Shown here piece by piece: positions 36,218 through 59,800 of a stretch of 64,000 nt of DNA. The number at the start of each line of letters is the position of its first letter. Position 1 is the stretch's first letter. Under the pieces are notes generated by a model. It had not been told where the DNA came from, made no database searches, and was given only the letters and a program-made list of their open reading frames with translations. The stretch lies in NCBI GenBank assembly GCA_032358255.1, contig JAULBX010026385.1:70128-134127 (forward strand), written 5' to 3'. The stretch is from Heterotrichella gracilis (taxonomy: Eukaryota > Sar > Xanthophyceae > Tribonematales > Xanthonemataceae). Made by a program: the position numbers and the translations under genes.

Positions 36218-38126
36218 TCACCTATACCGCCATGCGCCTGGCATGCGACGCACTCTATGGGATCCTGCAGGGGGCGCTGTTCCTTATCTCCAATAGGCAA
36301 CCATGGTATTCCCCTAAGAACCCTAAACCCTAATTTCTGTTTCTTACCCTTAGTAGGCGACCCTTGTATCCCCCAAAATCCCTAAACCCTGTACCGTAAC
36401 CCCTAAAAATCGTTTCTTACCTCCGGTAGGCGACTCTGGTATCGCCCGCAGCTCACTGCCGTTGCTGTCCCCCGGTGTCCCTTCACCCGAGGTGCTTGCT
36501 GTGGCGTCCGTTCGACTCCGCCGCCGTAGCGCATCCTCTGCACGGCAACCCAGCACAGGGCAGAACGTTAGCCCTGCTGGTGGCGCACATGAAGGAACAA
36601 GCTACAACCCCACACCTTCAACATCACAGTCGTAAACTACGCATTAAAAAAAATGACCACACAGCAGCCCAAACCCTGAAGCCTCAATCCTTGCTGAGAA
36701 GGGACAGATAACCTTCCTCGCAGCTACCCTGCACTCTTCACCCTAAACCTTTGACCCCATGCTAGCTGGCTGCCCGCGCTGGCTGCCCGCAGAGATGGAT
36801 ACCGCGCAGCAATCCTAAAACCCTAAACATGCTGGCAGGGCAGAGAGAAACCATCCACGTATAACCTGGTTGGCAAGCTCACCTGAAAATGATGGCGCCT
36901 TGGCCCAATGGCCATCGGAGTCTTTTATCATCATCTCAATTTCCCTCGGGGACCCAGGTGCGCTCTCGCCATTGCACCATGAGCTCGACCGCCGCATGTT
37001 ACCTGGCCTCACTGCTAGCAAGCGAATGCACCCACATCAGTATCAGCTTGCAAGGCTTGCACAGCAGACCAGCAGTGTAAGTACAGTGTGCGCAATCGCT
37101 CTCAGGAAAATCCCTGTTCTGCGTTCTCCCACGGCATGGTTGTACATGTACTGCATGCACGTAAATGAGCCGGCAAACCTATGCTTATGGTGCAAAGAGC
37201 GTTGGTGAAGTGCAACATACAGTCTGTGCATTGCCATGCACGTGTACATGCATTGGTAAAGATGCTGGATTGCTGGTGGGAAGGATATACCCGGGTGGAC
37301 AGCCGTACCATCTTGCCAGTCTGCGTTGCCTGTGGGTGACGTGGGCACTATGCCATAGTATCCTCGCAGCATCTCCATGGCCCCATGGCTACCCCCGGGC
37401 CCGCTGGCAGGGGTAGGTATGCGCGCCCTAGCACCCCCCTGATTGACCCTCCCATACTGCGTGACAATGATCCCTGCCCAGGTAGCATACTCCGCCCTGT
37501 AAGGCAGCCATCCACATGTGTTTTGAGCTACAAGTGATGCAACAGCGGTGGTGGGCAAGAGCTGCCGGGCTGGAGCAATGTATGGCGTGTGCGGGGAAGC
37601 TGGCACCACCATGCCATGGGCGATCATGCGATCTACTTACCCGAGGGGCATACTCCTGGTTGGTATGTGCAAGGTGTGCCTTGCATACATGGCACTGTCT
37701 GAGAGGAGCGCGTTGGCCCGCTTTATGTCAGCAACCTGCTCAAGCAACAACTTTTGGCATACTGTAAGGATTGCAGGTTGCACAAGGAGACCAGCTGGGA
37801 GTTTGGGTGGGGCCCTACCGTGACATTGTAGCGTATGGCCAAGCCAGCTAGCGTGTCAAGCTTCGACACCTGCAGCGACAAGGGCGTCAGCCAGGGTTTC
37901 TGGGTGCAAAGTGCCGCCAGGGGGGTTGTGTTGCGAGCTGTACCTTGTGGGTAAAGAAGGGTGACTGGTTTGATTCCTCGCCAAGGTTGCTGCCTGACGT
38001 GGAGGGCTGGTCATCTAGTGAGGCTGGTCTGCTGCGGTCTATCACGGGTCTCTCCTCCTCAATCTCGCTGATGGCGCTGTAACTGATGCCAGACCCACCA
38101 GCCTGCAGTGGACCTTGGAACTGCAT
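36218..38126 (-). CDS. LysM-domain protein
   Basis: A single LysM domain, a fold that binds N-acetylglucosamine polymers, in a protein without signal peptide, like the cytosolic plant and animal LysM proteins of unknown role. Exons 38126-37944, 37869-37819, 37735-37641, 37403-37309, 37002-36883 and 36537-36421 keep phase; a last exon 36264-36218 closes the frame at 235 residues but is the weakest part. The start MQFQGPLQAGG leads to an acidic Ser-rich segment. The LysM runs about residues 58-105: FFTHKVSKLDTLAGLAIRYN, then VTVADIKRANALLSDSAMYA and HTLHIPTR. The rest is low-complexity, with MEMLRGYYGIVPTSP and SAPGSPREIEMMIKDSDGHW. The donor edge of exon 36421 is triplicated downstream, with TTTAGGG tracts between copies, which makes the 3' end ambiguous. 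Confidence 0.8.
36279..36434 (-). repeat. Triplicated donor edge of LysM exon 6 with telomere motifs
   Basis: The exon end GATACCAGAGTCGCC + TACCGGAG and its donor GTAAGAAAC (36434-36411) recurs, altered, around 36361-36340 and 36301-36280. The anchors GTAGGCGAC (+ strand) stand at 36426, 36353 and, as ATAGGCAAC, 36293. Between copies lie CCCTAAA tracts (36319-36333 and 36380-36390, + strand). Copy 2 keeps a GTAAGAAAC donor; copy 3 has ATAAGGAAC. Confidence 0.8.
36814..36828 (+). repeat. Short interstitial telomere-type tract
   Basis: CTAAAACCCTAAACA in an intron of the LysM gene; plant-type telomere motif in two imperfect units. Confidence 0.7.
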
Positions 38127-38752
38127 AGTCCCCACCACCCGTCCCACACGCACTCTGTGTTTGTCTCCCGGCAAAAGTCACATGCTTGAAACCTGATACA
38201 TAGTCGACTCAAAGATGCTTCGCGACAAGCGAAGGATTGGCCCTACAAGACGTAGCCCTGGACAGAACTTCACAGGCAATATGTATGCATAGCGTTTGGC
38301 ATGCTACAGTGTTGTAGCCACTTCTGGGCAGTTCCAGGCAGTATTTGCAGGCTGTCTCCACCCAAGGGCCCTCGACATATACTAAGGGAAAACGTGGTAC
38401 TTACGGGACGCGGTCTGCGATAAGTGAAGTGCATTTGTTGGGACACAAATAGCTCGGCCCTCCCTCGGACAAGTCGCGAGCCAAGCGGAGTTACGCGTAG
38501 GATGGGAGTGTGTACCCCTTGGTAAGGGTTTTACAGCAACCCTAAACTCAGTTAAGGGGCTCGCCGCCACCATTTTGCAGTGTTATTGACGCTTAAACGC
38601 TGGCAAGTTGCAGATGCTGCCTTTCCGGCCCCCAAACTGGTACCACAGTACACCTGTACGCGTTGTCGTGGAAGCACCTCCTGTAGTTGCGCGGAACACA
38701 ACCACGGCTGTCTGCTAGAGCTCGCCAGTTGGTTGCCACCCACCCTCACACG
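38127..38752. promoter_or_regulatory. Divergent upstream region, LysM gene / RRP9
   Basis: 626 bp between two divergent start codons, hence probably both promoters. A lone AACCCTAAACTCA occurs near 38540. No specific element assigned. Confidence 0.4.
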
Positions 38753-41700
38753 ATGGCCAAGGCAGCGGGGAAACGGAAGCGGGCAAGCGCGCCCTCGAAA
38801 CCGCGCAACAAAGACAACGACTTGACCAACTTCGATGAGTTGCTGCTGGAAGACCAGCAAGTGGAGGAAATTGACGAGGAGGAGGAGGCACCTGAAACAG
38901 CTGAGGAAAAGCGACTACGGCTAGGTATGTGCAGGCGCGACCCTGGGAGGGATGTTTTAACTGCTCGAACAGAAGCTTGAAGCCGCTGGAAATATCTTTA
39001 GCCTGGCACTCCCCTCCTTTTGGACGCTGTCGCCACATCACTAAAAACATCTGCATATGCATGCATGCATGCATATGCAAAGTGGCCGTGCTAGTCCGTC
39101 CTTGCGTGAAACCCTGAACAGCGAACCTTGCACATAGTGTTTTGTTTGTCGTGGGCGCAAGTCTTCTTAGTATTGGCGATCGCCAGTGGTGCATTGCTCA
39201 CATTGTGGTATGTTGCACCTGCCAGTGCCTAGTTCCCTCCTTTCATGCGCGCCTGTGCCTTGTAACTGCAGCCAAGGCGTACTTGCAACAAATAAAGGCT
39301 ACTGAAAGGACGTCACGGGGTGGATATGGTGAGGACGAGGAGGGCTCTGATGACGAGCGCCTTGCCAGTGGCAGGGATGCCGAGCACGACACAGTGGCAG
39401 AAAGGCTGCGGGAACAGGCCTTGGAGGTCAGTCAAATAGCACTACTTGTTGCATGGGGCTGGGCCGTAATGTCACAGAGATGAAAATCATGACCATACAG
39501 TTGTGGCCGGCTGTTGTACCTGTGGCATTGCAAGGCAGTACTGCACGCACTTTGGTTCTTTGCGCCACAATCTGCAGATCCGTTGGGACCTCGCAGACCA
39601 CCTGCACCTCTGTCAGGTGTTCAAGTAGGCTCGTGCTAGCTACATGCATGCATGGTTCGCATCATATCGACACCGGTGTTGTGCAGGCCATGGGGCACGT
39701 GCAGAGGCGGATCGCCACGCGGGTGGTGCTGCCAGCCCTGTTGCAATCGGCGGAGTATGGGGCGAAGCTGCCAGGAACACTATGGAAGGGTCACAGGTAC
39801 CGTGCCATGCATTTGCACCTGCAACATAATGTACTTGTGAGTCAGTAATGGCCATTTCCCAGGGTATAGTCCAGGGTGGGGTGCACTTGGTGGAGCAGGC
39901 ATGCCACACTGGCCTCGTGTGTAAGCGGGTTGCTGTTGTATGGTAGTTATTCAGTCATATGTATTCCAGCAATGCAGCCGGCAAGGTATCACTGAAACCT
40001 TGAAATGAAGCACTCTATCCTGTGCTTATGGTGTGCTGGCAAGAAAGAAACGTACTTTTCCTGTCAGCCATAAACCCATGTGCTACCACGTATCAGGGGG
40101 TCACAGGCGCAATGTAGCAGGATTGCATAAATTCATCTCGCAAACCCCGCGCTGCTGTTTATGCCCAAGGTTCATAGACGGTTCTCCTGACCGCCACTTT
40201 CCTCTCCCCGCCTGGAGTAACAAGCCCCACATCCTTGCAGGCTACCTCTCACCGCTGTGGCGCTGACCAGCGACGACGCCACTGCGTACTCGGTGGCAAA
40301 GGATGGCAGCATCATACAGTGGGACGTGGAGACGGGCAAAAAGACGCGGTTTCAGGCAGCGGCAGGCATGGGCTCAGATACACCCAGCGGGACAACCGCT
40401 GACTGGATAAAAAAGGTTGCCCGGCCAGGCAATCAGCAGGCGCTGTATGCGGTAGCGGTATCCAGCGACGGCAGGTACGGCAGTGGGGCATGTGGCTGCA
40501 ACATGGGCCGCTGAATGCTCAAGCTAAATAAAAACAAACAATTACAGTTTGTTTTTATATTAGTGTTAATACATGAGGTTGGCATGGCTGTGCATGCACA
40601 CATGTGCAACTCGTACTTCCCAAAAGGGGCTGCACTTTTGGCTGTATATACGGTCACTGCACCCCATGCCAGCTGGCAGCGCTGTGGCACTCTTCTTCTA
40701 CCACTGCTGGATCGCCATGTACCGGCCACACCTATATATGTGCACTCTCAGCAACGATTCGCCCTGGACAGAAAGCATGCCGGAATTCTGCAATGTGCAC
40801 CATTGCGAATTCAGCCTTCTGAAGCAAAGAATGCATTATTGCAGGTATCTTGCGGTGGGCGGTGGGGACAAGAAGGTGCACATCTGGGATGCCAAGTCGC
40901 AGCAGTACATTCAGGGGTTCCCGGGGCACAAGGGCATTGTGAGCGGGCTGGCGTTCCGCGACAACACCAACACCTTGTACAGCTCCTCATTTGACCGCAC
41001 CGTCAAGATCTGGAGCCTGGATGAGCGCGCCTATGTGGACACCCTGTTTGGCCACCAGAGCGAGGTGGGTGCACGTGCATGTGGTGCACGTTGAATCCCA
41101 CCATTTTTTCTCCATGAGTCGAATACCTCTCTCTACAGCTTTGCCAGGTTGGTGACAAAGCTTACGGGATCATTAGATAGCATTCCTCTAGCTGCATGGC
41201 ACTGCAAGTTAGGGCTGGTGGCATGGATTGAAGACCCTGTGGGCTACAATCAATTCCCTTGATTTATGACCGCCCCGGGCAGGGGTTTGCGGTATATTGG
41301 AGGTGCAGGCAGGATGTACTGGAGGGAGTGCCATACATGCAATGCATGCAGTGCTGCTGGCAAGTTGGCAAGCAGGACACTGTTGGTCCAGAGCAATAGG
41401 GCGACATGGTGGCACTCACAGCCTGTAAGCTGCGGGTGTTTGCACGGCACCTTGCTTGCGAGTGACAGACGCTGGTGTGTAACATGTCAGAGCTGTATGT
41501 GCCGGTGTGCGTAGTGTGTACTGACGTGGCGCCATGTGTGAGCAGGTGCTGGCTGTGGATTCTCTGCGCCAGGAGCGCATCGTGACCAGCGGGTATGACC
41601 ACACCTGCCGGGTGTGGAAGATCCCCGAAGAGTCGCATCTCGTACTGCGGTGGGTACAATAAAGAAAAAAGTCTAAAATACTGTGGGTACAGTATTGAAA

Positions 41701-43223
41701 TAGAAACATGTACTGTAAAACGCTGAGTTCATGGGTAAAAGGCGCACTTTATGCTGATAAACCTGTTTTGAACGTAAATATGAGGTTCTGCCCGGTGTGC
41801 CAAGTGTTGCAACACTGTTGCAGGCCTGCTTTGTTTATCTACAGAACAGGGTTTTCTGAGAAAGTGGCCAACTTTGGCTGCTATACAATTGGCATAGGCC
41901 TTGGGCTTCTTTTTGAATTTAAGTTTCTGAGAGCAAGTGTGTTTCCTTGCACGGATGCACGCAGGGCCATTGACCCATACTGCCCATCACACGCACTCAC
42001 ACGCCGGCAGTGCCGCATATCCACTGTGCATGCATATTCCACCACTGCTGCGCAACCCTGGATGGCACCATGCTAACGCCTGCATGTGTGAATCCGCACA
42101 CCCAGGGGGCGTGATCTGGCCATGGAGTGCTGCAAGTACGTCACCGGCACAGAGTGGGTGAGCGGCGCGTGCGACGGGAGCCTCCAGCTGTGGAGCCAGA
42201 TGAAAAAGCGGCCCATGCAGACGCTGCAAAAGGCCCACAGCGACTTCAGCACGGGTGCTGGTAGCGTGGGCGGGGAGGCGGCTTCCTGGGTGTGCTCCCT
42301 GGCGACGTGCAAGAACAGCGATTTGGTGGTGAGTTGGTGGCGGTGCCTGCAGGCCATGCATGTACAGTAGTCATTGCCCATGGGAGCCCCATCCCCTTGA
42401 CATAAACCTCAAACCCTAAACCCTATAAGCTGGAGCAGGGGCCTGCAGCGGGGGCTGGATTGCAGCCTTCCTGGGCGACGCGCAAGAACAGCAAGGCTAT
42501 TGAGAAAATAGAATATAAGTCCTATTATTATCTTATTACCCTTGAGAACAGCGACCTGGTGGTGGGTTGATGGTGGTGCGCGCAAGCGCCGTGCCTGTGG
42601 TCATTGCACACTGTGCTGTGGGGCTGGTGCAGCTGAGACCCTTGCAAGCCCTTACCAGCCGGAGCCATTGCACGCTGTGCTGCGGGGCTGGCAACGACCT
42701 ACAGCTGTGGGTGCTCCAATTACCATTTAAAACCCCTAGCCTAAACTGCACAACCTCATTTTGGCATGCGGGCAGAGAGGCCCGGCGACGGTGTCATTGA
42801 ACTGTGAAGGCAGGCCGTGCCGTGGACTCTTGCTCAAGCCACAGGTTTGTGCATCCAGCAATCGCAATTACAATCTGAAAGAAAGGCTTCCAAGCCCAAC
42901 ACCGGCTTGTGCCTACACCTTGGCGGTGCATTCCACTGACCAGCACTGCTGTGGGGTCTATGCAGGCGAGCGGTTCCGGGGATGGAGTCATCAGGCTGTG
43001 GGCTGTTGAGGCAGGGCGCGCTGCAGGGCTGAAACAGCTGCGTGCAATCGGCGGCTTGCCAGCTCGCGGGTTTGTGAATGGGCTCCAGATCGCGCGCAGC
43101 GGGCGGTTCCTGTTGGCCGCCATGGGTCAGGAGCCGAGGCTGGGCAGGTGGGCTCGGGATGGTGCAGCCAAGAGTGGGCTGTTGCTGCACCAAATCGAGC
43201 TATCGGAAGGGGAGCAGGAGTGA
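38753..43223 (+). CDS. RRP9: U3 snoRNP WD40 protein RRP9 (U3-55K)
   Basis: Beta-propeller protein that binds the box B/C motif of U3 snoRNA in the small-subunit processome, in the nucleolus. Nine exons fit in phase: 38753-38924, 39272-39426, 39578-39616, 39687-39796, 40241-40474, 40845-41064, 41546-41649, 42106-42328 and 42966-43223. The N terminus (MAKAAGKRKRASAPSKPR) is basic, then acidic (EEIDEEEEAPE), followed by AKAYLQQIKATE as in the family. WD repeats include VALTSDDATAYSVAKDGSII, VHIWDAKSQQYIQGFPGHKG, LYSSSFDRTVKIWSLDERAY, VTSGYDHTCRVWKIPEESHL, and WVSGACDGSLQLWSQMKKRP. The end FLLAAMGQEPRLGRW is the RRP9 signature. Exon 3 (13 codons) is the least certain. The intron after exon 8 carries degraded copies of that exon's edge. 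Confidence 0.93.
39053..39078. repeat. Perfect 26-nt GCATGC palindrome in RRP9 intron 1
   Basis: GCATATGC, then ATGCATGCAT, then GCATATGC: the whole reads the same on both strands. A strong cruciform or single-hairpin candidate. Confidence 0.9.
39958..39980 (+). repeat. Dispersed intronic repeat, short copy C
   Basis: Contains TATTCCAGCAATGCAGCCG in an RRP9 intron, matching the core of the copies at 4046 and 46897 but diverging after it. Confidence 0.5.
42281..42720 (+). repeat. Degraded copies of RRP9 exon 8 donor edge with telomere motif
   Basis: The exon end (GGCGACGTGCAAGAACAGCG then ATTTGGTG, 42301-42328) recurs as GGCGACGCGCAAGAACAGC near 42473-42492 and as AGAACAGCGACCTGGTGGTG near 42545-42564; the second is followed by intron-like sequence matching the true intron start. 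CCCTAAACCC lies at 42411-42424 between original and copies. A further 63-bp tandem pair (CATTGCAC.CTGTGCTG) sits at 42603 and 42666. Confidence 0.7.
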
Positions 43224-45669
43224 GAACGCAGCCAGGGGGGTGCGCGCTTGTCACCATGCTTTCCCAGTGGGTAGCAGGCAGCCTGGTTTCCCTGTGTCTT
43301 TATCAGACATTATTGATTTAGAGACTGTGGCAGGTCTATGGGGTTTTAGTGGGGCCTGGCTGGAGCCTGTGGCTTGCTTACACGGCCTTGCAGAGGGTCA
43401 GTGTGATGCAAGCCTGGCAACTATTCCATCAGCCAATGTCGTCGTCATGTCTGCTGGTGACACTGCAGGCTCCTACCAAAACTAGCAGTGCTAGCCATTT
43501 GCAAGTCTTTCTCCAGTGTCAGACAGCGTGTAACCACCAAAGTGTTGGGCATGCGGTCGACATGCCGTTTCGTGTCAACACCAACTGGGATGTATCCAAA
43601 GCGCTGTAGAGGGAGCCTTTGTGACAGTTCTAGGCATTGTTGCCTAGCCAGGCCATGGCGGCGGGGGCAGCTGTAACACTGCCCAAACTCCATGTACCAA
43701 AGTTGCAGATCATCACACTGGAACGTCATGCAGCTGCTTATATAGCAGCTGCTATATGGGACTAGGCCTCCACGACACAAGCGGTCGCTGCTGCAGCTTG
43801 GGCAAGCAAACTCCCTATGGCAAGCAACGATACGACACCGTGACTGCTGCGGGACTCTCGAGAGTCGCAGAAAACGTTTCGCCAACTGGAACGTCAGGTG
43901 GCACGTTGAAGTGGTGGCAACAATTGGTGAGAGCTTCGCCCTGGCGTTTACACGGCAGTTCAAATCGGTATCAGCCGGGGACCGATCTATACACTGCAGT
44001 CTACTGTCGAAACACTCCCCCTGACATCCCCGACGCTTGGTCTATCTAGTGATGGTATCATACATGGCCCATGGCTGGGGTTGGGGCGTTTGGCCAAGCG
44101 GCAATGGTAATGCATGCATATACAAGCCGGGCTAGCCGAGTCAACCTTGATCAGCCTAATCATCGATTGAGCCGGATTAGGGTTTCAATTTCACACCCTC
44201 ATCCACCCTGCTTGGCAAAGTTGTCGGATAGCGACTTGGAGATCCGCGACTCGGTTTCCCGGGCAAGTTGCTCCATCGTCATGACCCTACATGATGGTAC
44301 ATGACTGATAAGCAAGCTATCACAGCGACACCGTAGCTACTTTCCACGGCCAACCCACTGCAACGAGGTGCATCGCAACCTTTCTGCGACATTTAGTGCA
44401 GACCCAACCCACTTTTGACAAAGCAACGCCCCAAATTGCTGGGTACTGGGCGGGTGCATTGTGCCCCTCCTGTCATGCCCTCGCACAAGCCGGCTCCAAA
44501 CAGCGGTGGCTAGGTGCGTACCAGCACGCGCTGCTCTGCTGCATAAGATATTGTCTGCGAGTATAGGTGTTGTTTGATAGTATTCTCGGGCAACATGACA
44601 CGTAGCCCGCGTGCCCTCCCCATTTGGCTGCCATCACCCACCGCTAATGACCTGCAAATGCCCCATCGTCGTATTGGGGTGTCCTCGCACCGCCTCACCC
44701 AGGCCGCCGCATGGTTTGCTGTGATCTTGCATTCATAAGGTCGGTATCACGTTCATCTGCCCTTACACGCAGCCGGGGTTTCATGCAGGTGCTTGGAGGC
44801 GTTGCTGCCCATTGGTTGTACCAGGGACATCGTCGGAGGTAAGTGGCAAGACTAACCTAGGCGTCGTTCGTGGAGCACGTACATCCACGGGTAACTGCGA
44901 GCTCTCCATGTTCTGTACTGTTAAGTGGAGCGGTTGGAACCGCCTAATGTCCGTCGTAAATATCTTTGGGAAAACCCTTGCATCTTGCTCGACGCCCTGG
45001 CAACCAACCCACCACACTTTGCACTTCAGAGCAAGTACAGCAAAACGAACTTGTCTAGTTGCAAGCGCTAGGCATCGTCCTTCGTTGTCTCACGCCAGCC
45101 CCTAGTTCTTTTGCACGATCATTTTAAGCGGTGATATCGTGGCGCTGTGCCCCACCCATCAAGCTATATGTTTGCGTGCAATAAAAGTATGGGAGCGGGG
45201 CCTACGGCTTAGCAGTTGGTGCGTGCATGCTGCTCCATCCAACATGTTAAAGTCCTGTTGTCGTTGGGTCGAATATCGTGCGTCTTTACCGTCCTTCCAA
45301 GTGCCTGACATGGGTGACACAGCGCACCCACGTACTGGCACAACGTTGTACCTAGGCAGGGTGTCTGGCAGCGGCTTGAGTGCCTCGAAAGCTTATTACT
45401 CAGCGTATAGTGACGGCTGTCCTCAGAAGCTTGGTTTACCCCTTTCAAACCGTATAGCGATGGGGGTTTGCCCAATTCGCTTCTGAAAGGCCTGTGGCAC
45501 TCCCTGCCCAGTTGGTTTGCCGCCCTTCTTCTGTCGTTTTGTGGTCGTTGGGGGCAATGCAGTGCTCACACGTTGTCGGATAGTTACACCCGTGGGACAT
45601 TTGCACAGCGGCGATATCAGCATCGGCGCCGTAGTGCCAGCTTCCAGTGCAGTTCGACCACTGACTGGG
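43224..45669. other. Intergenic region, RRP9 / CDK
   Basis: 2.4 kb with the RRP9 3' flank and upstream region of the CDK gene. The longest frames (172 codons on - near 43445-43963; about 115 codons on + near 45139) match nothing I know. An upstream CDK exon could be hidden here. No RNA gene or transposon ends recognised. Confidence 0.45.
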
Positions 45670-48539
<2,870 letters not shown>

Positions 48540-50356
48540 ATGGCTTCATGTCCTCCCATAGCTGGACGGATGTGATACAGGTAGAGAATCCACTCATAGG
48601 CCTATTTCTGGTACAAAACTATACACCAGGCACTTTGTTGGTAGGTAGGTTCAAGCACTGGTAGAATTGAAAAAAAGAAAACTTGGTTTTGCGGAGACGA
48701 GTTTCATAGGTACCATGTTACAGCTGGTTTGTTGCTGTGCAGCGCTAAGACTACAATGTCTGGTGCTGCTTGGATGGCAAGCATGTTGGTCGAATGTTTT
48801 CATATTGTCCTCAAATTGTAGCCGTTTTTGGCTGTCCAGCCAGTGTATTTGAGAGACAAAACAAGTTTCCGCTGTTTATCAGCACAAGAGTGTGCTGTGC
48901 AGAATGCATGCTGCAGCTTCTGTCCCTTGTACTACATTTCCCCTTCTCATTCCCTCACACAACTTGTGATGCGTCCAAGGAGCTATGTCACGCCCTTGAT
49001 GTTTTGGCTATTAGAGATACCTCCAACCGCAGGTGTTTGTCAAACATGGTGTGCTCTTAGAGCCAGTCGCAGCCTTTATTGCATTGCAGTTATATTCCTT
49101 GCTGTATATTTCCTTGTTCCATTTCAGTAGGTAGATTGTAATATGACGTTGCCTTTTTTTGGGTGTTCTTGTTGTCCAGCACAGAACAGGTGGTGCAATT
49201 TGTGGCTGTAGCCCTCATGTCAAGTGTCCTGCCATTCCAAATCACCTATCAAGACTTGTGTAGAAAACCATGCCAGCGCGTGTATCCATGTACTGGTTCT
49301 TGCAAGTTTCTGCATTGCGTTGATTTATTCGCAGGAGCCATTGTCCAGCTGTGCATCCTGTTGTGTGCTCATTTATGTGGCAACGTGTGAGCCCATTTTG
49401 CCCTTAACCTCTCTTAAGCAATGCCTCAGCGGCTATGCAGTGCAATGTCAACTGCTTGGCTCTTAGCACACCTCCTTTTTCAATAACACAGTGCCAGGGT
49501 TGAGTGCATTGTACATCATGGTTTTCGATGAAAAGCAGGCCCATCAATGCAATTGGCATTGGCAGCACTGCAGGTCCATGCTAGGTGTGGTAGTTAAAAA
49601 GTCTGGTGCTGTGTGGCCAGTTTTTTCTTATCAAGATTGCTTCCCGGTATTTTGAGCTTCGCTGTCAGTCAGCAATAGTAGATGTTATTGAATTTTGTAG
49701 ACGTAGTTAGTTAGATAGCTAGTTAATTGAGTTGGTGGTAGACCAGGCTAGGCTGCGTGAAGCTAGGCTAGCCAGACAAGTTAACGAACGTCGCACTTGC
49801 AGCCAATCGTGATGCACATGGTAGTAGAACTGTGTCTTCATGTGTTAACAAAGTGTGATGTACATGATTTACATTAGCATCTGCAGTACATGATGGTGAT
49901 AGGCCCGTCTAAAACTGTTGAACCACACGCTGTTTTTACTAGACCAGTAAATATTTCAAGGCGCTGTAGTTGACGGCCTAAGAATATTAGTAATTTATTA
50001 AATTACTAATAATACTTAATAAGGGTTTACTGCATAACGCCAAGTCTTAGACAGTAGCTGATTGGCAATGCCATATGGCCACCCAATGGTCGGTGCGATG
50101 CACCTGACATGAACCTTACAGTGTAAGAAAGAATATCCTTCAGAGAAAGCGCGCAACGCGGATCGTATTACCTCTGCAACGGTGGCAGTGCCATGCTGCA
50201 ACACAATGTCACGTGTACCCAGAGACTGACACTCAGCGGCACAACCACTGAACTGCTGCAGCAGACTTGGGCCTGCAGCAGGCTAAATGGCCTACCATGG
50301 TGACTGCATGCATGCATTGTCAATTAGCAAGCACAATGCCATTCCATTAACCGTGA
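48540..50356. other. Convergent intergenic region, AT-rich
   Basis: Between the CDK 3' end (+) and ABC-F 3' end (-). It is AT-richer than its neighbours, notably 49640-50035, with many TAG/TTAG words. Only short frames; no recognisable gene, RNA or transposon. Confidence 0.5.
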
Positions 50357-53300
50357 TCATTGGATCTTCAACCTGCGTTTTAGCTTGGCCACATACTGCG
50401 CCATGCCCCCTTCCAGCCGCGTGACCTTCCCCCGCCTCGCCTCAAACACCTCCCTTGCCAGCGCATCCACCAGGTACTGGTCATGCGACACCAGCACGAT
50501 CGCCCCCTCGTACTCCCTCGCCATCTCGATCAGCGCATCCACACTGTCAATGTCTAGGTGGTTGGTGGGCTCATCCAGAATCAGCAGGTGCGGCCCCCCG
50601 AACATGGTCCGCGCCAGCGCCACCCGCACCGCCTGGCCACCAGACAGGGTGTCCATCTTCTGGGTGGCTGTGGAGCCCTTGATGCCGTAGGACCCCAGGA
50701 AATCCCGCAGGTCCTGCTCCCGGGACCCAGGGAAATGCTCCTTCAGGTGGCTCAGAGGGGTCGCCTCAGCACTTGCTGCCAGTTCATCCACGTGGCTCTG
50801 CCTGAAGAACCCAAACTTGGCTGCTGCATGGCGCTCCAAGGTGCCGGCGCCAGGCTGGAGCTCGCCCATCAGCAGCTTCATGAGCGTGGTCTTGCCCTCC
50901 CCGTTTGCGCCGATGATGCCGATGCGGTCGCCTTGCTGCACGTTGAGCGTCACGCCGCTGAGGACCGGCGGGGTGCCCCTGTGGTGATGCGCACGCTTTG
51001 TGAGCGCATGCAAGGGCCGGTCCTCTGCCTGTTGGCCCCCTTACATACCAGTGGCTGCTTACAAGCATTGCTGGAAGCATAGGGCCAACTTCTGGCCCTA
51101 GACTGAGCATGCAGGTCCAATCACAAAGTTTGAGTACACATCCATGATGCCTAGCAATATGCTATACCATCATACTACTGGCAGTGCACCGCAGTGTTGC
51201 ACCCTGCCCACCCACCTTTTGTACGTAAATGAGACGTCTGCCAGCCGGAGCAACGGGCCTTGGTGCCGCAGCGGGTCTGGAGTGGCCACCTTCCAGTGCT
51301 GGGGAGCCTCAGTGGTCTCCAGCTCCACACCTAGCCGCCGTCCCGTGTGATACCCAATCAGGTCCTGCGCACACACCGCACTGCTTGTACCATGCACAAA
51401 TGTCTTATTATTCTATTCTACTTTTATGTTTTTTTATGTAGGTACTTCCAATCATCCTGCGCACACACCGCACTGCTTGTACCATGCACAGACTTTTGTA
51501 TTTAATTTTTTTCGCTTTTCGTAACTTAGTTGCTGCCAATCATGTCCTGCACACAGCACTGCTTGTACCCTGCACCGCCATGGGGCACAAGGCTGATGCA
51601 TGCAGGAGTTGCAACACGTCAAACATCCTGTACAGTAAGTTCATGCAACTGGTTAAGGCAATTATTGAAGTAAAGCCTCACCCGCTGAACCTTGAGCCGG
51701 TGCCCATGCTCATTCTTCTCGTTACCAAGGCGGTTCTCTAGCTTCTTCTTGCGAGACGCCACCATGCCCAGCTTCTTGTCATCCCCAGCCTTCTTGGCCT
51801 GCCGCAAGCCCTCCTGGATGCTCTTCTCCATGTGGGCCCTGCAGGGTATGTGATTTAGGGTTTGGGGTTCGACAGCTGTGACAATCGAAATTCAGCAGCG
51901 CGACAACCACAGGATGCCCCTGGCTCCTCAAGGTTGCCATGACTGCATAGCATGGCGATGCCACGCCTTACATTATCATGCAAGCTGCGGCATCGTGTGC
52001 TATTTGGACAGGGATATTTTGGCAGGTAAGCAGGGTACACATGCAATGCTCCACTTGCCTGCATCACATGTGCATTCCATGCAACTGTGAAGCAAACAAA
52101 ACCTCATGCAGGATTGACACACTTCTTTTTCTTAAAAGCCATCTGAGAGCCTGGCCTGGCGCAGCATCTCTTCTCCTGTGCCTGCTTGTACTAACGGCAC
52201 ATTAGGGTTCAGGGTTTATGGTGTTGGGTTCCATCTTACTTCTTCTTGTTGATGCCATCCTGCAACCTGGTCTGGTGCACCAGCTTCTCCTCCTGTGCCT
52301 GCTTGTACTGGGAGTAATTGCCGCTGTGGTAGCTCAGCTGCTTGTGCCTGCACAACAACGGGGCACGCTCATTGACTACCTCCGGATCCCCGCTACCATG
52401 CGCATCATGTTCCACGTCATTGCAGTTCTACACTGGACCCCATGCCTGCGCCCAGAATGCATACATAGATGGTTTAGGGTTTAGGGTTTAGGGTTTACCC
52501 AGATCTGGCAGCACAACAAATCTGGCTGGCACAAATGAATTGCCCAGTAAATGCTCATAATGCGAGTACAAGCCCTTCAGATATTGGATGATGGCTGTGA
52601 TGACTCCACACACATGTAACGATGCCACTGATTGTGAATGTGGTCATCACAGGCTGATCAAGTCGCATGCATTTATCAACTGCACCGCAAATTACACCCA
52701 GCCTCACCTCAAGACAATGGTCTCCGTTGTCACTGCATTCAAGAACGCCTGGTCATGCGACACCACCACTAGGGTGGTTGCATCGAGAGACTTTAAGTAG
52801 GAGGTAAGCCACAGGATGGCGGGCAAATCCAGGTGGTTGGTTGGCTCATCCAGCAGCAGCACCTCGGGGTCTAGGAACAGCGCCTGAGCCATGGCCACCC
52901 GCATGCGCCACCCGCCTGTGCCACCATGCACACACGATCCGTCAGATCTCTAAAGATTTATCCACACAACGCATCAACAAGGCCAAGCAATCCCTAAACA
53001 AGGCCCGTGCTGCTGGGTCAAGGAACAGAGGCTGAGTCATGGCCACTTGCATGCGTAACCCATCTATGCAGCCATGTGCATACCACCCGTCAGAGAGTCA
53101 TGCAAACACAATGTTACAACTGACACATGCGGCTCTACATACTGGCTTGGCAGGGGCACAGGCATGTTGCACTGTGCAATGGTGCCTGTAAATACATGTC
53201 TTGACTGCAATGCATGCATGCCCAAGCCAAGATATAAAACTCAGCACTAGTATAGCATTCACCTTAATAATTCTCAGTTTCTGCTGACGATGATTAAACA

Positions 53301-55747
53301 ACCCTCCATAAATACACGTCCCAAGGCCACGCATTGGCACCCACCTGACAACCTCCCAAGGGGCCCATCCTGCATCTCCTTGGTGAACCCCAAACCAGTC
53401 AGTATCTTCCTGGCAGTGCCCTCTGCTGTCTCAGCATCCATCAAGCTCAGGCTGGTGAACAGCTCAGAGAGCTGCTCCTGAGCTCTGAGTGAGGCAGCGC
53501 TGAGCTCCTCGGCTGAGTAGGGTTTGTCCATGGCCTGGAGGGTTTCTGCCAGCTCGGTCTCCAGAGCAACCAGCCTGTGGCGGGCATCAAACCCGCGCGC
53601 CCCGCTGCGGTGGGTGGCGATCTGCAGCGCCTGGTCCACTTCCATCTTGACCCGATCCAAGTTGATCTGTGGGGGTATCAGCGGCTGCTGTTGGCATCGG
53701 CAATGATTGGCGCAGAATCTAAAACCACGCGCTCGAGTTCCATGCAGCCTAACCCATGAAATGACACACCATACACAAATGTGAATCAGCTTGGCATCAG
53801 CCAAATCTGGTGCAATTGTTGTCTATGCGCATGGGTGCGCACACAGCCCATGGCCAAAACAAGTGGCCACCTATTTCACATGCATTGCACACATCCAGTC
53901 TCGCCAATGCACATGAAGCCAGTGCAAATGAAGCCACTGCACAGCCTGGGTCCCGCTCCATCCAACTCAAATCAAGCGCTTGCAGCTGGTCCACGCAGCT
54001 ATTTTAATATATGGCTGTAAGCAATCGTTTGCATATGGCAATACCATAAGCAATGGGTTGTGTGTCACAAGTGATGATGTATGTTGCAGTGCACAGATTG
54101 TGATATGGCTCTACCTGTCTCAATGCAGCGGCCATGGCCTCGGTGCTGCATGTCTCCACTGCCTGCTGCAGCATCGCGCTCTCACGGGCGACTCGAGTGG
54201 CCTCCTTGTCAGACTCAATGACCACCTAGGTACAAGGAACGAGTGTCAGGGCATAGGGTTGGCCTTGTCTGTCAAACTCCATGATCACCAATCACCGTGG
54301 TCAGTGACAAAAGCCAATGGTAGGCAGCCGCGAGCAATGCAGTCCACAGCACTTTGCAATCGCATGGACTGCCTCCACCAAGGATCTACCGCGCCCTTTT
54401 CAGATGCCCACAATACACGCAGTCATAATAGGCGCGCCAGTAGGAACCCTGAGGAACCATTTACCAGCGGGTCCCACCTGGAGCACGCTGCTTGCCCCCT
54501 GCACCTGTTCCAGCTGATCACATACTGCACCCTGATGCTGCAGTGAAAACCCTGAGTAGTGTTTAGCAAGGGTCTCACCTGGAGTACGCTGCTTGCCCCG
54601 TGCACCTGCTCCAGCTGATCCACATACTGCACCCTGATGCTGCTGGGCAGCCCAACCAGCAGCCCATAGCCCAAGGACTTGAGCAGAGTGGACTTGCCCA
54701 CCCCGTTGCGCCCTACCAGACCATAGTGCACCCCTGCGCGGTGCGGCATACAGTTTTAGGGTGCATGCAGTATATCGTATTGGTTTAGGGTTTGGGGTTT
54801 GCCCACCCCGTTGCGTACTACCAGACCATAGTGCACCCCTGCGCAGTGCGGCATACAGTGTTTGGGTGCATGTAGTATATCGTATTGGTTTAGGGTTTAG
54901 GGTTTGCCCACCTCGTTGCGCCCTACCAGACCATAGTGCACCCCTGCGCGGTGCGGCATACAGGGTTTGGGTGCAAACAATATATCGCATTGGTTTAGGA
55001 TTTAGGGTTTGCCCACCTCGTTGCGCCCTACCAGACCATAGTGCACCCCTGTGTGGTGTGGCATACAGTTTCAGGGTGCATGCTGTATACTGTATTGATT
55101 TAGGGTTTAGAATGTGCCCACCCCGTTGCACCCTACCAGACCATAGTGCACCCCTGCGTTGTGAGAGGTACAGTGTTTGGCTGCAAGCAATATACCGTAT
55201 GAATTTAGGGTTTAGGTTTGCCCACCCCGCTGCGCCCTACCAGACCACAGTCCACCCCTGCATGGTGGGAGTATCACGCTGTCTGGTGCATTACATGCAT
55301 GTAGTGCATGCATTTATGTCAGGTTTTGTTGCTGTGGCGTGCGTTGCATGTGTGTTTAGGGTGTAGGATTTTGTAGACCTGACCCACACAAACATGTTAC
55401 CGTGCGGCGAGCATGTCGCGATGGGTTGGTATCCATGGTGCAAACATCTTGATTACAGTCAAGTGAAACGTGCGGGGTCCTGTATGCATTAAGACCGTGA
55501 CCGCTTCGCAAAGAATCCATATGTGCAGGCGTTTTAGATAGGGTTTTAGTACGGTTTCTTTAGGGTTCCAGGAGTCAGGGAGCACTTGGGTGCCGCAGCG
55601 CACACCTGCAAACAGCTTGAGGTGGGCATCACACAGCAGCTCTGTATCTTCCACAGTTAAGTTGACGTCCTTGAGGTCGATGTCTGTGGCGGTGGTGTCT
55701 AGGGTTTCGTTGTGGAACCTAGACTGCTGGGAGGTTGCCACGATCGC
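50357..55747 (-). CDS. ABC-F family ATPase (GCN20/ABCF3-like), 5' exon not resolved
   Basis: Soluble protein with two ABC ATPase domains and no membrane segments, of the family acting on ribosomes. Exons 55747-55606, 54733-54579, 54225-54115, 53666-53345, 52915-52708, 52347-52240, 51838-51682, 51364-51216 and 50978-50357 keep phase over 657 residues. Domain 1: [19 protein letters not shown], Walker [10 protein letters not shown], signature [12 protein letters not shown], Walker [12 protein letters not shown] and SHDQAFLN. The linker ([20 protein letters not shown], then [13 protein letters not shown]) is the ABC-F hallmark. Domain 2: [11 protein letters not shown], Walker [33 protein letters not shown] and SHDQYLVD. 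The C terminus is KLKRRLKIQ. Walker A 2 has Glu where Ala or Val is usual. The start lies upstream of 55747 and was not found. Five of the exon edges are duplicated in adjoining introns. Confidence 0.9.
51355..51575 (-). repeat. Triplicated acceptor edge of an ABC-F exon
   Basis: The sequence before and just inside exon 51364 (+ strand: CAATCAGGTCCTGCGCACAC, then CGCACTGCTTGTACCATGCA) recurs at 51449-51490 and 51537-51575, spacing about 93 and 88 bp. Each copy includes an acceptor CAG and about 11 nt of exon. AT-rich sequence, not telomere motif, separates them. Confidence 0.85.
51853..51869 (+). repeat. Short TTTAGGG-like tract beside an ABC-F exon
   Basis: ATTTAGGGTTTGGGGTT lies 15 bp outside the acceptor of exon 51838-51682. 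Confidence 0.7.
52120..52194 (-). repeat. Degraded copy of the 3' edge of ABC-F exon 52347-52240
   Basis: 52141-52194 aligns to 52256-52308 (CCTGGCCTGGCGCAGCATCT against CCTGGTCTGGTGCACCAGCT, both then CCTGTGCCTGCTTGTACT). The TTAGGG-like tract at 52203-52220 separates copy and exon. Confidence 0.75.
52471..52497 (+). repeat. Interstitial telomere-type tract, (TTTAGGG)n
   Basis: Three and a half perfect TTTAGGG units in an ABC-F intron. This is the plant/green-algal telomere motif; the cleanest tract in the window besides 47061-47100. Confidence 0.9.
52990..53075 (-). repeat. Degraded copy of the 5' edge of ABC-F exon 52915-52708
   Basis: 53022-53060 on + (AAGGAACAGAGGCTGAGTCA then TGGCCACTTGCATGCG) aligns to 52873-52910 (AGGAACAGCGCCTGAGCCAT then GGCCACCCGCATGCG). 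The match continues beyond the splice site to CCGTCAGA in both, offset about 150 bp. Confidence 0.75.
54466..54648 (-). repeat. Duplicated 3' edge of the ABC-F Walker A exon
   Basis: The exon end and donor at 54576-54648 recur at 54475-54541 with period 101 bp; both copies carry CACCTGGAG (donor side), GCTGCTTGCCCC and TACTGCACCCTGATGCTGC. Both have a usable GT donor. Confidence 0.85.
54696..55325 (-). repeat. Six-copy 105-bp tandem array of the ABC-F Walker A exon edge
   Basis: Units begin at 54696 (the exon itself), 54801, 54906, 55011, 55116 and 55220 (+ strand anchor GCCCACC). Each contains, on the gene strand, an acceptor CAG, the exon start for [13 protein letters not shown], and a CCCTAAACC tract. 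The last unit decays near 55325. Copies at 54906 and 55011 have CTCGTTGCG in place of CCCGTTGCG, turning G of RNG into E. The 105-bp period leaves frames open on both strands. Confidence 0.95.
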
Positions 55748-56861
55748 CTGCGAGCACGCTAAGTAATAAGGCCGCTGAAAATAACCAGTTGCTGGATTTT
55801 TATGTGTCACAGTGTGTGCCAAGGCGGCGAACACTGTCCCTGAGGTACAAAGTAGTTGGCAGTTATGCATGCACATGCATGCTTGTTGCCCTGTGGCATG
55901 TGGGGTGTCTATGCAGTTCAAATAGCTCATGAATCGACATACCATTCTTTGCAAGTGAAGTTCACCCAGCCCCGCTGAACGCGCCAACCCCGCCAAGCCC
56001 AACCCGACAGGTGGCACCCTGTGCGAACAGCTGGCATGTCACGCAGATGCCAAGAACTTTCCAGCGCTGGAGAAGCGTATTTATGGGTAAACCGCGTTGA
56101 GAAAAAGGCATGATCAAGTCTGGGAGGCAGGAAGTAGCTCCTGCACTTCCAACGCAAACTGTCCGCTCCTGCAGCCCACTTCGTGAACGTCCAAGGCATA
56201 CCTTAGGGTTACGCTGGTGAGGGGAATTTGTGACGGTGAATCCTTCTGCTGAACCTCCTGCCCTCTGGTACCTTACGTCCTCCGTTCCTATAATCAAAAG
56301 CAACTTGTTTTTTCAACCCAATAGTCGTAGGCACGTCGCAAAAGTCCAATCACAGGAATTCTTGAAGTTGGACTGCAAGGCTCTGTGCCGTGTCTTTCCC
56401 TTGATGCGTGCTCCACTCCTCTCGGAAAAGGAAGAGTGCGCCTGCTCAAAGCTGCTTCTTGCCGGTAGCGGCTTCCAAACTGGGGCGAACCCCATTTCTA
56501 CCTGCTGGGTCTTTGTTGAGATGTGCAAGGGGAGTCATAATCAAATGGGACGGGGCGACCAAATAGCCATCTTGGGCGAATTAAATACCGAAGTCGCTTT
56601 GTCTACTGTTGCCAACAGCGTTGGGTCGTTGCCGGGGTATTAAACAAAGGTTGCCGCAACTTGGCGTCGTTTCAGACTCGAAGGACTGCCCAACTGATCA
56701 TTCTCCCTCAAGCTTTATGCATGCATGCATGTGCACTTATGGAAACGTTTGCGCTTGGACGCTAGTATATAGCGGGTTGTGAAGACAGTAACGTATCTAA
56801 CTCTGGTATTGTTGAAATAATCTTCTTCTTGACTTGAGAGCACCGTAGGTGTCGTGTAGCT
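55748..56861. other. Unresolved 5' region of ABC-F gene and NOP14 upstream region
   Basis: Must contain the first ABC-F exon(s). A 90-codon frame starting with ATG at 56199 (-), MPWTFTKWAAGAD, does not look like an ABC-F N terminus and I could not join it. The NOP14 promoter probably lies in 56300-56861. GCATGC-rich words occur at 55860 and 56718. Confidence 0.4.
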
Positions 56862-59800
56862 ATGGCAAAAAAGAAAAAGACCCGGCCGCCGATGCCGGGA
56901 GGCAAACAACTATCCACCGCCAAGCCCAACCTATTCGAGCAGCTGCACAGCAAAAAGAAGTTCAACATATTGGGCCGCAAAATCAAAGGGCAGAAAACAA
57001 ACGTGATCAAGGCCCGAAGCGATGCCGTGGATAAGGTGGGTACGGTCAAGCAAACTCCCAATCGCGGCGGCGTGCATGCACTGTGACTCTGCGTTGCAGT
57101 GGCTTGACGAGGCGGTGTTGGTGTGGCATAAACGTTGTGGCGTTGCAAACCCTCTGAGCCCTGGGTTCTGCCTAAGAGCGAGCTGGTACTTGTTGCCCAT
57201 TTTCTGGATGCAGACCGTGACTGGCCAGCAATTTAGTGCTGCAACTCGTAAAATAGTATTCAGCAGGTTTGCATATGTACACGCATAACTGCTATCATAG
57301 GTTGTGCTCCAGCCGTTTTCCGTGTAAACCCAGAGACCCACACCGATGCATGCATATTGGCGCTTTCCAAAGACCACATGCCCTACTGAGGCGCCACCCG
57401 TACACACGGGACGTTTGGGATGGCCGCGGGTGCAGAACAACCTGTACCTAGCGCAAATTTGTTTGCCTGCAGAGGAAGAAGACCCTCCTGGTAGAGTACA
57501 AGCAGCTGAAGAAGTCAAACAACTTCATAGACAGGCGATTTGGAGGTGGGTGCAAGGCTTCCCGTGGCATTGAACTGCACCCTTGTAGTCCGCACAGCCA
57601 GTGGCAATACATGTAGGGTGCACAGTACAGTTGTACCCACAGCAATAGCACCTGAGCAGCTTATCCTTAGCCCCTGCGCAACCTGTTAAGTCATGCAAGC
57701 GCCTTCAGCCCGTCAACAATGCTGAACCCTAAATACATACACTACCACTACGGTAACCGTGAGTGGTTGCATGGTGAACTCATCCACGTTGCAGGAGCAT
57801 GCATGTCAAACCCCACAACAGTAGCTGTGACCGCCTGCGCACCTTCATCTTCAGCCATTAAAAGCCCTATGGAGCGCATGCCTGAAAGCCTTGCAAGTCC
57901 TTGAGCCCACCAACATGTATGTATCATCAGTGTGTGTGTTTTGCGCATGCAGAGCACGATGAGGGCCTCACTGCTGATGAGAAGGCCATCATGCGCTTCC
58001 AGAAGCAGCGCGCCAAGGAGCTGGGAGGTGAGCGCAGTGTAGGGTTGTAGGGTTTATAAAATAGGGTGTACAGTGGTTAGCCTAAATCCCGTTGCACGCC
58101 AAAGAGCTGGGAGGGAAGCGCCGTGTAGAGTTGTGGGTTTATAATGTAGGGTGTGCAGTAACCAGTAGGCATATGCCAGGGTACTGTGAGGCGACGTTGG
58201 GTGGTGCTGCGGTGGTTGTCGTGATGAGTTGCAGTTGCATATTCATGTCCTGCTGCTAGATCATAATGTCCTGCAGTTGCGGAGCACTTGCCTGTCCACT
58301 TTACACAAATGGTCTGGTTCGAAAATGCAATCTTGATTGGTTCCCAGGGCTGCAGAATGCCATTACCAAAGCTTCATTTGCAAACAGAGTAGGCATGCGT
58401 TTGCACGGCCATGTTCAAGGGTCCAGGCCTTACATTTGCCATCCACACTCCTGCATGCGCCCTCCCCACCCTTGTGTGCCCCTTGCTCCAGGTGGGAAAT
58501 TTGCATTGGTGGATGATGGGGAGGAGGAGGCGCTCACGCACATGGGGCGGGCGCTGGCGGATTTCGATGCGGGACAGGTGGGTGTGGACAGGCTGTTGCC
58601 CATGAGGGCCGGTGCCAAATGCATTCACTGCGCAATTGGCGTGCAGGGGATGCAATGCTTTGCTTGTACACGCGCCAAACGCACAGCAGCACTTAGACTG
58701 CTTGTATGGGTTAAAATTCAAGGGTTTTGGGGTTAGGGTGCTCATGGTGATGCCCTGTGTGTAGGGTTTATGAAATAGGGTTTAGGGACAGGTGTGTGCC
58801 AGCATCCCAGCAGTGCCCAACATCTGGGATCGGTGCAATTTTACAGGGATTTGGGGGCAGGGACGATGACGACGACAACATCCCCGACGACTACATGCAA
58901 GACTTTCATTTCGGCGGCGGCTTTGTGCGGAAACCGGCACCAGACGGCGCAGGGGAGGGAGAAGACGCCGAGGATGGCGGGGATGGCGGGGATGGTGCGG
59001 GTGGGGACCGCAGGAAAACCAAGAAAGAGGTTATGGAGGAGGTGATTGCCAAGAGCAAGATGTACAAGGCGCTGCGCCAGCAACAGAAGGAGGACGACGT
59101 GAATGAGACGCAGGCGCTGGATGACCAGTTCAAAGAGCTTGTGAAGGGCAGGGCGCTGGCGGGGCTGGTGGTGCAGAAGGGGGAGAGGAAGTGAGTGGGG
59201 GTGAAGGGATGTGATGAGTGATGGTGATGGTGATGGTGATTTGCGTTTCTACATGTTCAGGAAAAACCTTGGGCGATGCCATCCACCCTGGTCAAACTTC
59301 ACATTTCATTAGGATGTTCTTGGTGAGGTCCGCGTTAAGTTTTCAGCAATGGGGTGCCAGCTGATTATAAAATAATTGATGACGTGGCGTTCATTTGATT
59401 GGCTGGATGCAAACCCAGGGGCGCCCAGGTTCGTCTTGGCAAACGAGGCCTTCCGCTCAGACACCTTTGCCCAGGCGTGCGCCCAGAGGGTTCGGGGCGA
59501 GCACCCAGAATTCCTGGTCGCTGCATGGGCGTTCAAGTTCCACGTATATGAACACCCTCTTACTACCATTCATTTGTCGCTGTAGGGGCACGCCAGGTGG
59601 CGGCACCGATGACGACGGCGACCGCCAGTATGACATCATGGCCAAGGAGCTGGTGTTTGAGGCCAAGGGGGGCGTGGGGGAGCGAACCAAAACCGAGGAG
59701 GAGGTTGCTGACGTGGAGCGGAGGCGCCTGGAGGAGCTGGAGAAGCAGCGGCTCAAGCGCATGCGGGTAGGGTTTCAATTGGAGGGATTTGATAACATGG

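Follow-up and report, generated by a model that had tools for sequence, protein, structure and literature searches.

Telomere repeats between direct copies of exon edges: possible scars of mended breaks in the introns of an algal genome

We analysed a stretch of 64,000 nucleotides (the window; C387:70128-134127) from a genome assembled into 903 contigs that total 68,512,230 bases. Exons in the window carry direct copies of their own edges in the adjacent intron, and short tracts of the telomere repeat TTTAGGG often lie between the copies. In the sampled parts of the genome, such tracts are enclosed by duplications in excess of controls. The excess is specific to telomere DNA, the tract is placed between the copies, and tracts are in excess near predicted intron edges. 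We think it probable that these scars are staggered breaks mended by end joining, in which the overhang was duplicated and telomere repeats were added at the joint. CCCTAAA arrays are found within the first 280 bases of seven contigs (C70, C140, C526, C609, C712, C717 and C770), as at chromosome ends, which identifies TTTAGGG as the telomere repeat.

Between 36 and 63 kb of the window, 11 exon edges have copies on the intron side, several of these edges resting on the gene finder or on reading by eye (Table 1). The initial annotation had described at least eight such edges, donors as well as acceptors, in five genes (LysM, RRP9, CDK, ABC-F and NOP14), and intron-side copies were confirmed in all five. 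It had also placed a telomere tract between the copies in most cases. A clear tract is located there at six of the 11 edges: the LysM, RRP9 and NOP14 donors, the CDK acceptor, the ABC-F acceptor 54733/54734 and the ABC-F donor 52238/52239. The acceptor near 62660 and the ABC-F acceptor at 52915 have a weak or single-unit tract. The remaining three, the CDK donor, the ABC-F donor near 54579 and the acceptor near 51364, have none. The copy at the CDK donor is 13 nt long with 12 alike, and the sequence between it and the edge is a dispersed-repeat fragment instead of telomere DNA.

LysM corresponds to PF01476, found in its upstream exons, and NOP14 to PF04147. The RRP9 candidate contains WD40 repeats and was named from the initial annotation together with a reading of the protein by eye. 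For CDK, ABC-F and NOP14, alignments to solved relatives continue without a break through an affected junction and thereby identify which copy is exon. The CDK alignment spans 46879-47117, the Walker A exon of ABC-F was aligned to ABCF1, and the NOP14 junction falls between KELGG and GKFAL. On the sense strand, the repeat between the copies reads TTTAGGG at the LysM and NOP14 donors and CCCTAAA at the CDK and ABC-F acceptors. CCCTAAA is also the reading at two donors, that of RRP9 and that of ABC-F at 52239, which contradicts a simple rule of orientation by donor and acceptor. Copies in the window differ mutually by about 7-23% and the window contains no N, so assembly stutters are unlikely. 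The 18 clear tracts in the window are all located right of 34.7 kb, tracts of the reversed unit number 0, and (TTTAGGG)x2 occurs five times versus 0 in 100 shuffles.

Three samples were used to compare tracts with control positions. The main sample of 264 kb consists of the window and C2:1-200000, C2 being the first contig listed, so that single tracts were not hand-picked. A clear tract has a score of 12 or more, and a flank duplication is a direct one with a score of 28 or more within 150 nt on either side of the tract. Flank duplications were found at 29 of 68 tracts in this sample (19 of 50 in C2 alone), compared to 3.6% of 576 random positions. Reverse-complement flanks were found at 0 of the 68, even at a score of 24 or more. 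The second sample contains 47 tract-centred loci taken in list order, in which 51 of 98 tracts are duplication-flanked versus 7.7% of 363 controls. Because L005 and L006 overlap, some of the 98 are possibly counted twice. Reverse-complement flanks amount to 1% at score 28 and 3% of the 98 at score 24 or more. The third sample comprises eight freshly fetched loci, with one tract dropped at an edge. Duplications flank five of the eight central tracts and 6 of all 13 tracts tested, versus 8.5% of 94 controls. The initial annotation had proposed such a comparison for tracts within introns, and it came out strongly positive: 25 of 53 intronic tracts are duplication-flanked, compared to 59 of 728 places at matched edge distance in tract-free introns.

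The association is specific to the telomere repeat and to the space between the copies. Other microsatellites are duplication-flanked in 8 of 77 cases (p 9e-6), the intronic ones in 6 of 34. Four permuted units, searched on one strand, gave 0-1 tracts, whereas TTTAGGG on both strands gave 68. Genome-wide, the exact two-unit word occurs 5629 times, some occurrences overlapping, versus 5 for the reversed word. A search for local duplications found 75 pairs, and a tract lies between the copies in 17 of them versus 2.1 expected (24 versus 3.7 when weak tracts are included). In 65 pairs the gap measures 8 or more; a tract lies in the gap of 16 of them and in the equal-length outer flanks of 3 and 3. 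This indicates that the tract is tied to the joint and not to the neighbourhood.

Introns were predicted in the window and C2 with a gene finder trained on the sequence itself and charged a cost per intron, which gave 65 genes, 303 exons and 238 introns. A state-based and a first segment-based gene finder were dropped after they produced absurd gene structures. Exon edges are predictions except where checked against proteins; the finder missed LysM and split ABC-F at 52235. With edge copies called at a score of 26, 41 of the 238 introns were found to repeat an edge of their own exons, with 25 copies of donors and 20 of acceptors. The controls gave 0 and 0.18% when the intron was swapped for one of similar length, and 0 and 0.42% with the reverse complement. 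By subtraction, C2 alone has edge copies in 34 of 176 introns. A tract is present in 16 edge-copy introns versus 6.4 expected (p 4e-5, odds ratio 5.4, or 4.6 when stratified by length).

The initial annotation had assigned the pattern to the right half of the window. Within the window this is correct, with 0 of 32 predicted introns affected left of 36 kb and 7 of 30 right of it; in the genome at large, however, the pattern is widespread. Shuffling showed a clustering of scars by gene, with p 0.0095 for copies, 0.0065 for tracts and 0.0005 for either of the two signs. Tracts and edge copies form regional or gene-wise clusters, in window 36000-64000 compared to 1-36000 and in C2:62000-118000 compared to the rest.

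Splice junctions are frequent among the duplicated sequences. A predicted junction is contained in 44 of the 75 pairs, 18 touch an exon without a called junction, 6 lie within introns and 7 are intergenic. Exactly one junction is present in 41 pairs, and 40 of these have their other copy on the intron side, a placement that selection alone would favour. The earlier proposal that only events rebuilding a full junction survived is too strong, as 16 intronic duplication-flanked tracts have no called junction versus 32 that have one; four of the 16 belong, by their coordinates, to the ABC-F array.

The bias toward exon edges could in large part be a matter of detection. Edge copies would stay recognizable longer because one of the two is under selection, whereas copies inside an intron would fade twice as fast, and the counts of 44 pairs with a junction and 6 inside introns differ in the direction that fading predicts. 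Tracts, which are found irrespective of any duplication, nonetheless crowd at predicted edges and favour introns. Of 53 intronic tracts, 31 are within 60 nt of a predicted intron edge versus 17 expected. With one value per intron (37 tract-bearing introns), 67% are that close versus 35% expected. Tract density per kb is 0.60-0.67 in introns, 0.11-0.18 between genes and 0-0.02 in exons, which makes introns about 4 to 6 times denser than intergenic sequence. Fading of intronic pairs thus explains part of the junction excess and not the crowding of tracts. Detection accounts for part of the exon-edge bias and not all of it; that it is the main cause is possible, though we doubt it.

Where a tract lies within 25 nt of a predicted edge, its G-strand mostly points away from the exon and into the intron: 29 of 40 edges show this direction (p 0.006), and 24 of 35 (p 0.04) do so when the window that prompted the test is left out. 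This suggestive bias may reflect which end gets extended, or constraints from splicing, with TTTAG as an acceptor decoy and CTAAA as a branch-like motif.

How could such a scar arise? After a staggered break, both ends would retain the stretch between the nicks (‘U’, about 20-100 nt), and joining of the two U-bearing ends would duplicate it. Before joining, one 3' end would often gain a few TTTAGGG units, most likely from telomerase. The extended end would then join the other through a short match, giving U - (TTTAGGG)n - U. A scar inside an exon would be expected to disrupt the protein. If U spans a splice junction or lies within an intron, the outer copy would keep working while the intronic copy decays. 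Introns would thereby gain the length of U plus filler and accumulate duplicates of the exon edge beside them. Exchange between copies could then expand arrays like the one in ABC-F. The staggering of the breaks, the polarity of the events and a joint origin of duplication and tract are all parts of what we infer.

The second copy of U serves as a stand-in for the empty ancestral site. At the G-strand 3' joint, the bases before the duplicated stretch match the tract end in 16 of 16 clean cases versus 41% simulated; five of the 16 rest on long matches with telomere-like sequence that lies beyond the copy, and two of the 16 come from a single locus. We read these matches as the extended end having been joined through a short match. 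A telomerase RNA-binding domain was found in the genome, and we consider telomerase the likely source of the repeats. The CTC1 family profile had no match in the genome, in a search where all controls were equally silent.

Several observations weigh against this explanation. Microhomology on the priming side is present in 6 of 10 cases versus 42% simulated (p 0.15). The sole informative case from the eight fresh loci, a nested arrangement, has no match at the G-strand 3' joint. Tract purity shows no correlation with copy identity (rho 0.14, p 0.21, 86 events), which gives no support for an equal age of tract and duplication. No clear tract is found in 25 of the 41 edge-copy introns, and 21 of the 37 tract-bearing introns have no edge copy at the threshold. 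The proposal, already made in the initial annotation, that breaks were healed with telomere DNA and flank duplication is still the best reading, although telomere addition is not needed for such a scar. Duplication with other filler forms the wider class, and telomere DNA is the one filler that stood out.

These other fillers also bear on whether the telomere DNA was captured ready-made, as a fragment filling the same kind of repair scar with no telomerase at the break. Tract-free introns, the dispersed-repeat piece at the CDK donor, the extra non-telomeric bases that often adjoin a tract and the non-significant priming side would all agree with capture. However, the tracts are short, with 5629 exact two-unit, 834 three-unit and 63 six-unit words genome-wide, and 31 of the 63 six-unit words are at the starts of the seven contigs. 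Microhomology is strong on one side only (16/16 versus 6/10, both small numbers), and no other filler is as prominent: tract-free fillers, which were not searched against the genome, are no more than mildly enriched in AACCC/GGGTT, G runs and AT runs, and nothing else stood out as clearly. We consider capture unlikely.

The order of events could also be reversed, with tracts present in introns first and slippage or unequal exchange between them later duplicating the nearby exon edge. The initial annotation had offered this as its alternative. For 29 of 80 duplication-flanked tracts, a further tract borders one of the copies on its outer side, as expected of arrays grown by exchange. ABC-F is a clear array of this type, and exchange probably explains its growth and that of others like it. 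The lack of correlation between purity and identity would fit as well. But exchange should leave an outer tract, and the other 51 events are without one. The preference of tracts for the gap over the outer flanks and the scarcity of flank duplications at other microsatellites also argue against this order, which is improbable as a general explanation. A mobile element carrying telomere units and making target-site duplications would account for an insert bounded by direct repeats, and a dispersed repeat is present in one intron, but it is a very improbable source given that the telomere insert varies in length and phase, that the duplications of the 80 events, all in direct orientation, measure 17-96 nt and not a fixed length, and that no common body was evident among these events by eye.

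A broader proposal is that in this algal lineage telomerase acts regularly at internal breaks beside splice junctions, that TTTAGGG units are added to the end bearing the exon before it is rejoined, and that chromosome-end machinery is thereby a main engine of intron growth. The exon-to-intron bias of the G-strand agrees weakly with extension of the exon-bearing end. We put the proposal forward tentatively, as somewhat less likely than not.

The creation of introns by tandem duplication of junctions, which the initial annotation had mentioned, is a separate question. Over 238 introns there is no sign of the AGGT route: the surroundings of donor and acceptor have a mean of 12.09 of 46 matches in register versus 11.92 in controls, and a single intron reached 24 of 46. 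At C2:148391-148646 and L046:611-735, the predictor sets a donor in one copy and an acceptor plus a donor in the other. These sites may hold small additional exons or newly gained introns of the potato type.

Table 1. Features of the affected exon edges and their surroundings, in window coordinates
Feature	Position	Strand	Remarks
LysM exon tail and donor GTAAG	36412..36447	-	exon ends 36421
LysM donor copy 2	36339..36374	-	81% identical
LysM donor copy 3	36279..36314	-	3 copies in all; by eye
TTTAGGG tract, LysM copies 1/2	36380..36407	-	sense strand TTTAGGG
TTTAGGG tract, LysM copies 2/3	36319..36333	-	
RRP9-like exon tail and donor	42312..42354	+	exon ends 42328
RRP9 donor, intronic copy	42545..42587	+	81%; further partial copy 42469-42492
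Telomere tract between RRP9 copies	42403..42425	-	sense strand CCCTAAA
CDK donor	46869..46952	+	edge 46869-46881, dispersed-repeat fragment 46883-46939, edge copy 46940-46952 (by eye)
CDK acceptor, intronic copy	47028..47057	+	90%
Telomere tract between CDK acceptor copies	47058..47100	-	sense strand CCCTAAA
Used CDK acceptor and exon head	47112..47141	+	exon begins 47118; CDK alignment across junction
Degenerate TTTAGGG tract just past another CDK donor	47264..47293	+	exon ends 47255; no edge copy
Acceptor near 51364 and overlapping intronic copies	51354..51575	-	no tract
ABC-F donor (GTAAGA at 52239) and intronic copy	52121..52309	-	copy 52121-52192; tract 52202-52230 between, sense CCCTAAA-like
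ABC-F acceptor at 52915 and intronic copy	52867..53094	-	copy 53015-53094; one telomere unit 52992-52998 in filler
ABC-F donor near 54579 and intronic copy	54469..54643	-	93%; filler 28 nt, no clear tract
ABC-F acceptor array	54694..55261	-	105-nt units of intron tail, exon head and telomere repeats, 5.4 copies; used edge 54733/54734
NOP14 donor and exon tail	58008..58039	+	exon ends 58027; alignment across junction
Telomere-like tract between NOP14 copies	58040..58056	+	
NOP14 donor, intronic copy	58094..58125	+	84%
Acceptor near 62660 and intronic copy	62579..62678	+	weak tract 62631-62647

Two predicted genes on the minus strand, 52235-55747 and 50357-51831, look like one ABC-F gene (window 50357-55747). 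The halves would be joined via the donor at 52239 and an exon starting near 51838. This donor is our own reading, and the gene finder placed a stop there. Two NOP14 introns contain an altered telomere-like motif of 25 nt, TGTAGGGTTTATAAAATAGGGTGTA, at 58046-58070, 58131-58155 and 58760-58784. A purine-rich tandem repeat (60994-61136) is located in the acidic part of a predicted NOP14 exon.

The dispersed repeat in the CDK intron surfaced in a search for an allelic second copy of that intron, of which none was found among the 42 matches listed (40 of 560 candidates were scored). It is found at window 46883-46944 and 4039-4093, C2:86959-87017, C2:188100-188146 and L068:921-982, and in at least 40 other places with 85-94% identity (560 candidates at first look). 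Elsewhere it is longer than in the CDK intron. Its reverse strand holds the stretch GGTTCAAAC, which to us recalls a B box of the tRNA type; the repeat is perhaps a short interspersed element.

From its protein matches, the genome is probably that of a chlorophycean green alga. At least 43 listed matches are chlorophyll a/b-binding proteins. The best matches of a CP26-like frame are chains 9is4, 6kac and 7pi0, followed by 8bd3; we take 6kac, 7pi0 and 8bd3 to be from Chlamydomonas, Dunaliella and Chlorella, respectively.

How introns acquire new sequence has long been asked; repair of breaks with filler DNA is a leading explanation, though one that is rarely visible. Here, about one sixth of the predicted introns (41/238) are still scarred. 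In each of these the exon edge itself provides an internal reference, and in many the filler can be recognized. If the sampled parts are typical, one genome would hold thousands of such events, with which the roles of breaks, telomerase and splicing in intron lengthening could be tested. They are also suited to asking whether breaks gather at splice junctions.

Related processes are known from other systems. Patch-mediated repair in rice and paired-nick duplications in Arabidopsis have reportedly been described. The CST complex also serves telomeres. With polymerase alpha-primase, it generates small tandem duplications at induced breaks with 3' overhangs in human and mouse cells (PMC8355091). 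The scars described here share with them direct copies of tens of bases and, on our reading, the doubling of a break's complementary overhang, whereas the available part of that paper describes no telomere repeats at the joint (PMC8355091). In mammals, interstitial telomeric sequences are short tracts inserted at double-strand breaks; microhomology is interpreted there as pointing to telomerase, and the insertion sites show deletions, additions or target-site duplications (PMC2246262). As in these sequences, the insert here is the organism's own telomere repeat. Duplication was reported at 6 of 130 loci in rodents and 4 of 25 in primates (PMC2246262), compared to 29 of 68 tracts here. Telomerase-type microhomology is seen in mammals, whereas here it is clear only at the opposite joint, and the portion of the mammalian study consulted describes no link to splice junctions (PMC2246262).

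TTTAGGG is likely ancestral in green algae, according to the available part of a recent source (PMC12633428). Chlamydomonas reinhardtii has internal telomere repeats too, reported mainly as a blot band and attributed to possible end-to-end fusions; neither duplications nor intron edges are described in the sections seen (PMC6549138). Plant telo boxes are likewise telomere motifs, short and interstitial, found throughout a green-lineage genome, for which telomerase and recombination have been proposed (Gaspin 2010, PMC3022908). They are, however, single 8-base motifs enriched in 5' UTRs (untranslated regions), with 151 per Mb in Arabidopsis introns versus 155 genome-wide, and no flank duplication is described in the excerpts at hand (PMC3022908). 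In the open-access literature, no title or abstract opening was found that describes telomere tracts between copies of exon edges; subscription papers were not covered. In the parts consulted, no cited study brings telomere repeats, duplication and splice junctions together in one frequent genomic scar. A tandem duplication across an intron-exon border can create an intron and an exon, in an account whose available part does not mention telomere DNA (PMC4974935). There the border duplication made a new intron, whereas here the copy stays in an existing intron and lengthens it (PMC4974935). Both components, the insertion of telomere DNA at breaks and the small tandem duplication, are known on their own; what is new is their fusion as a common scar of intron edges.

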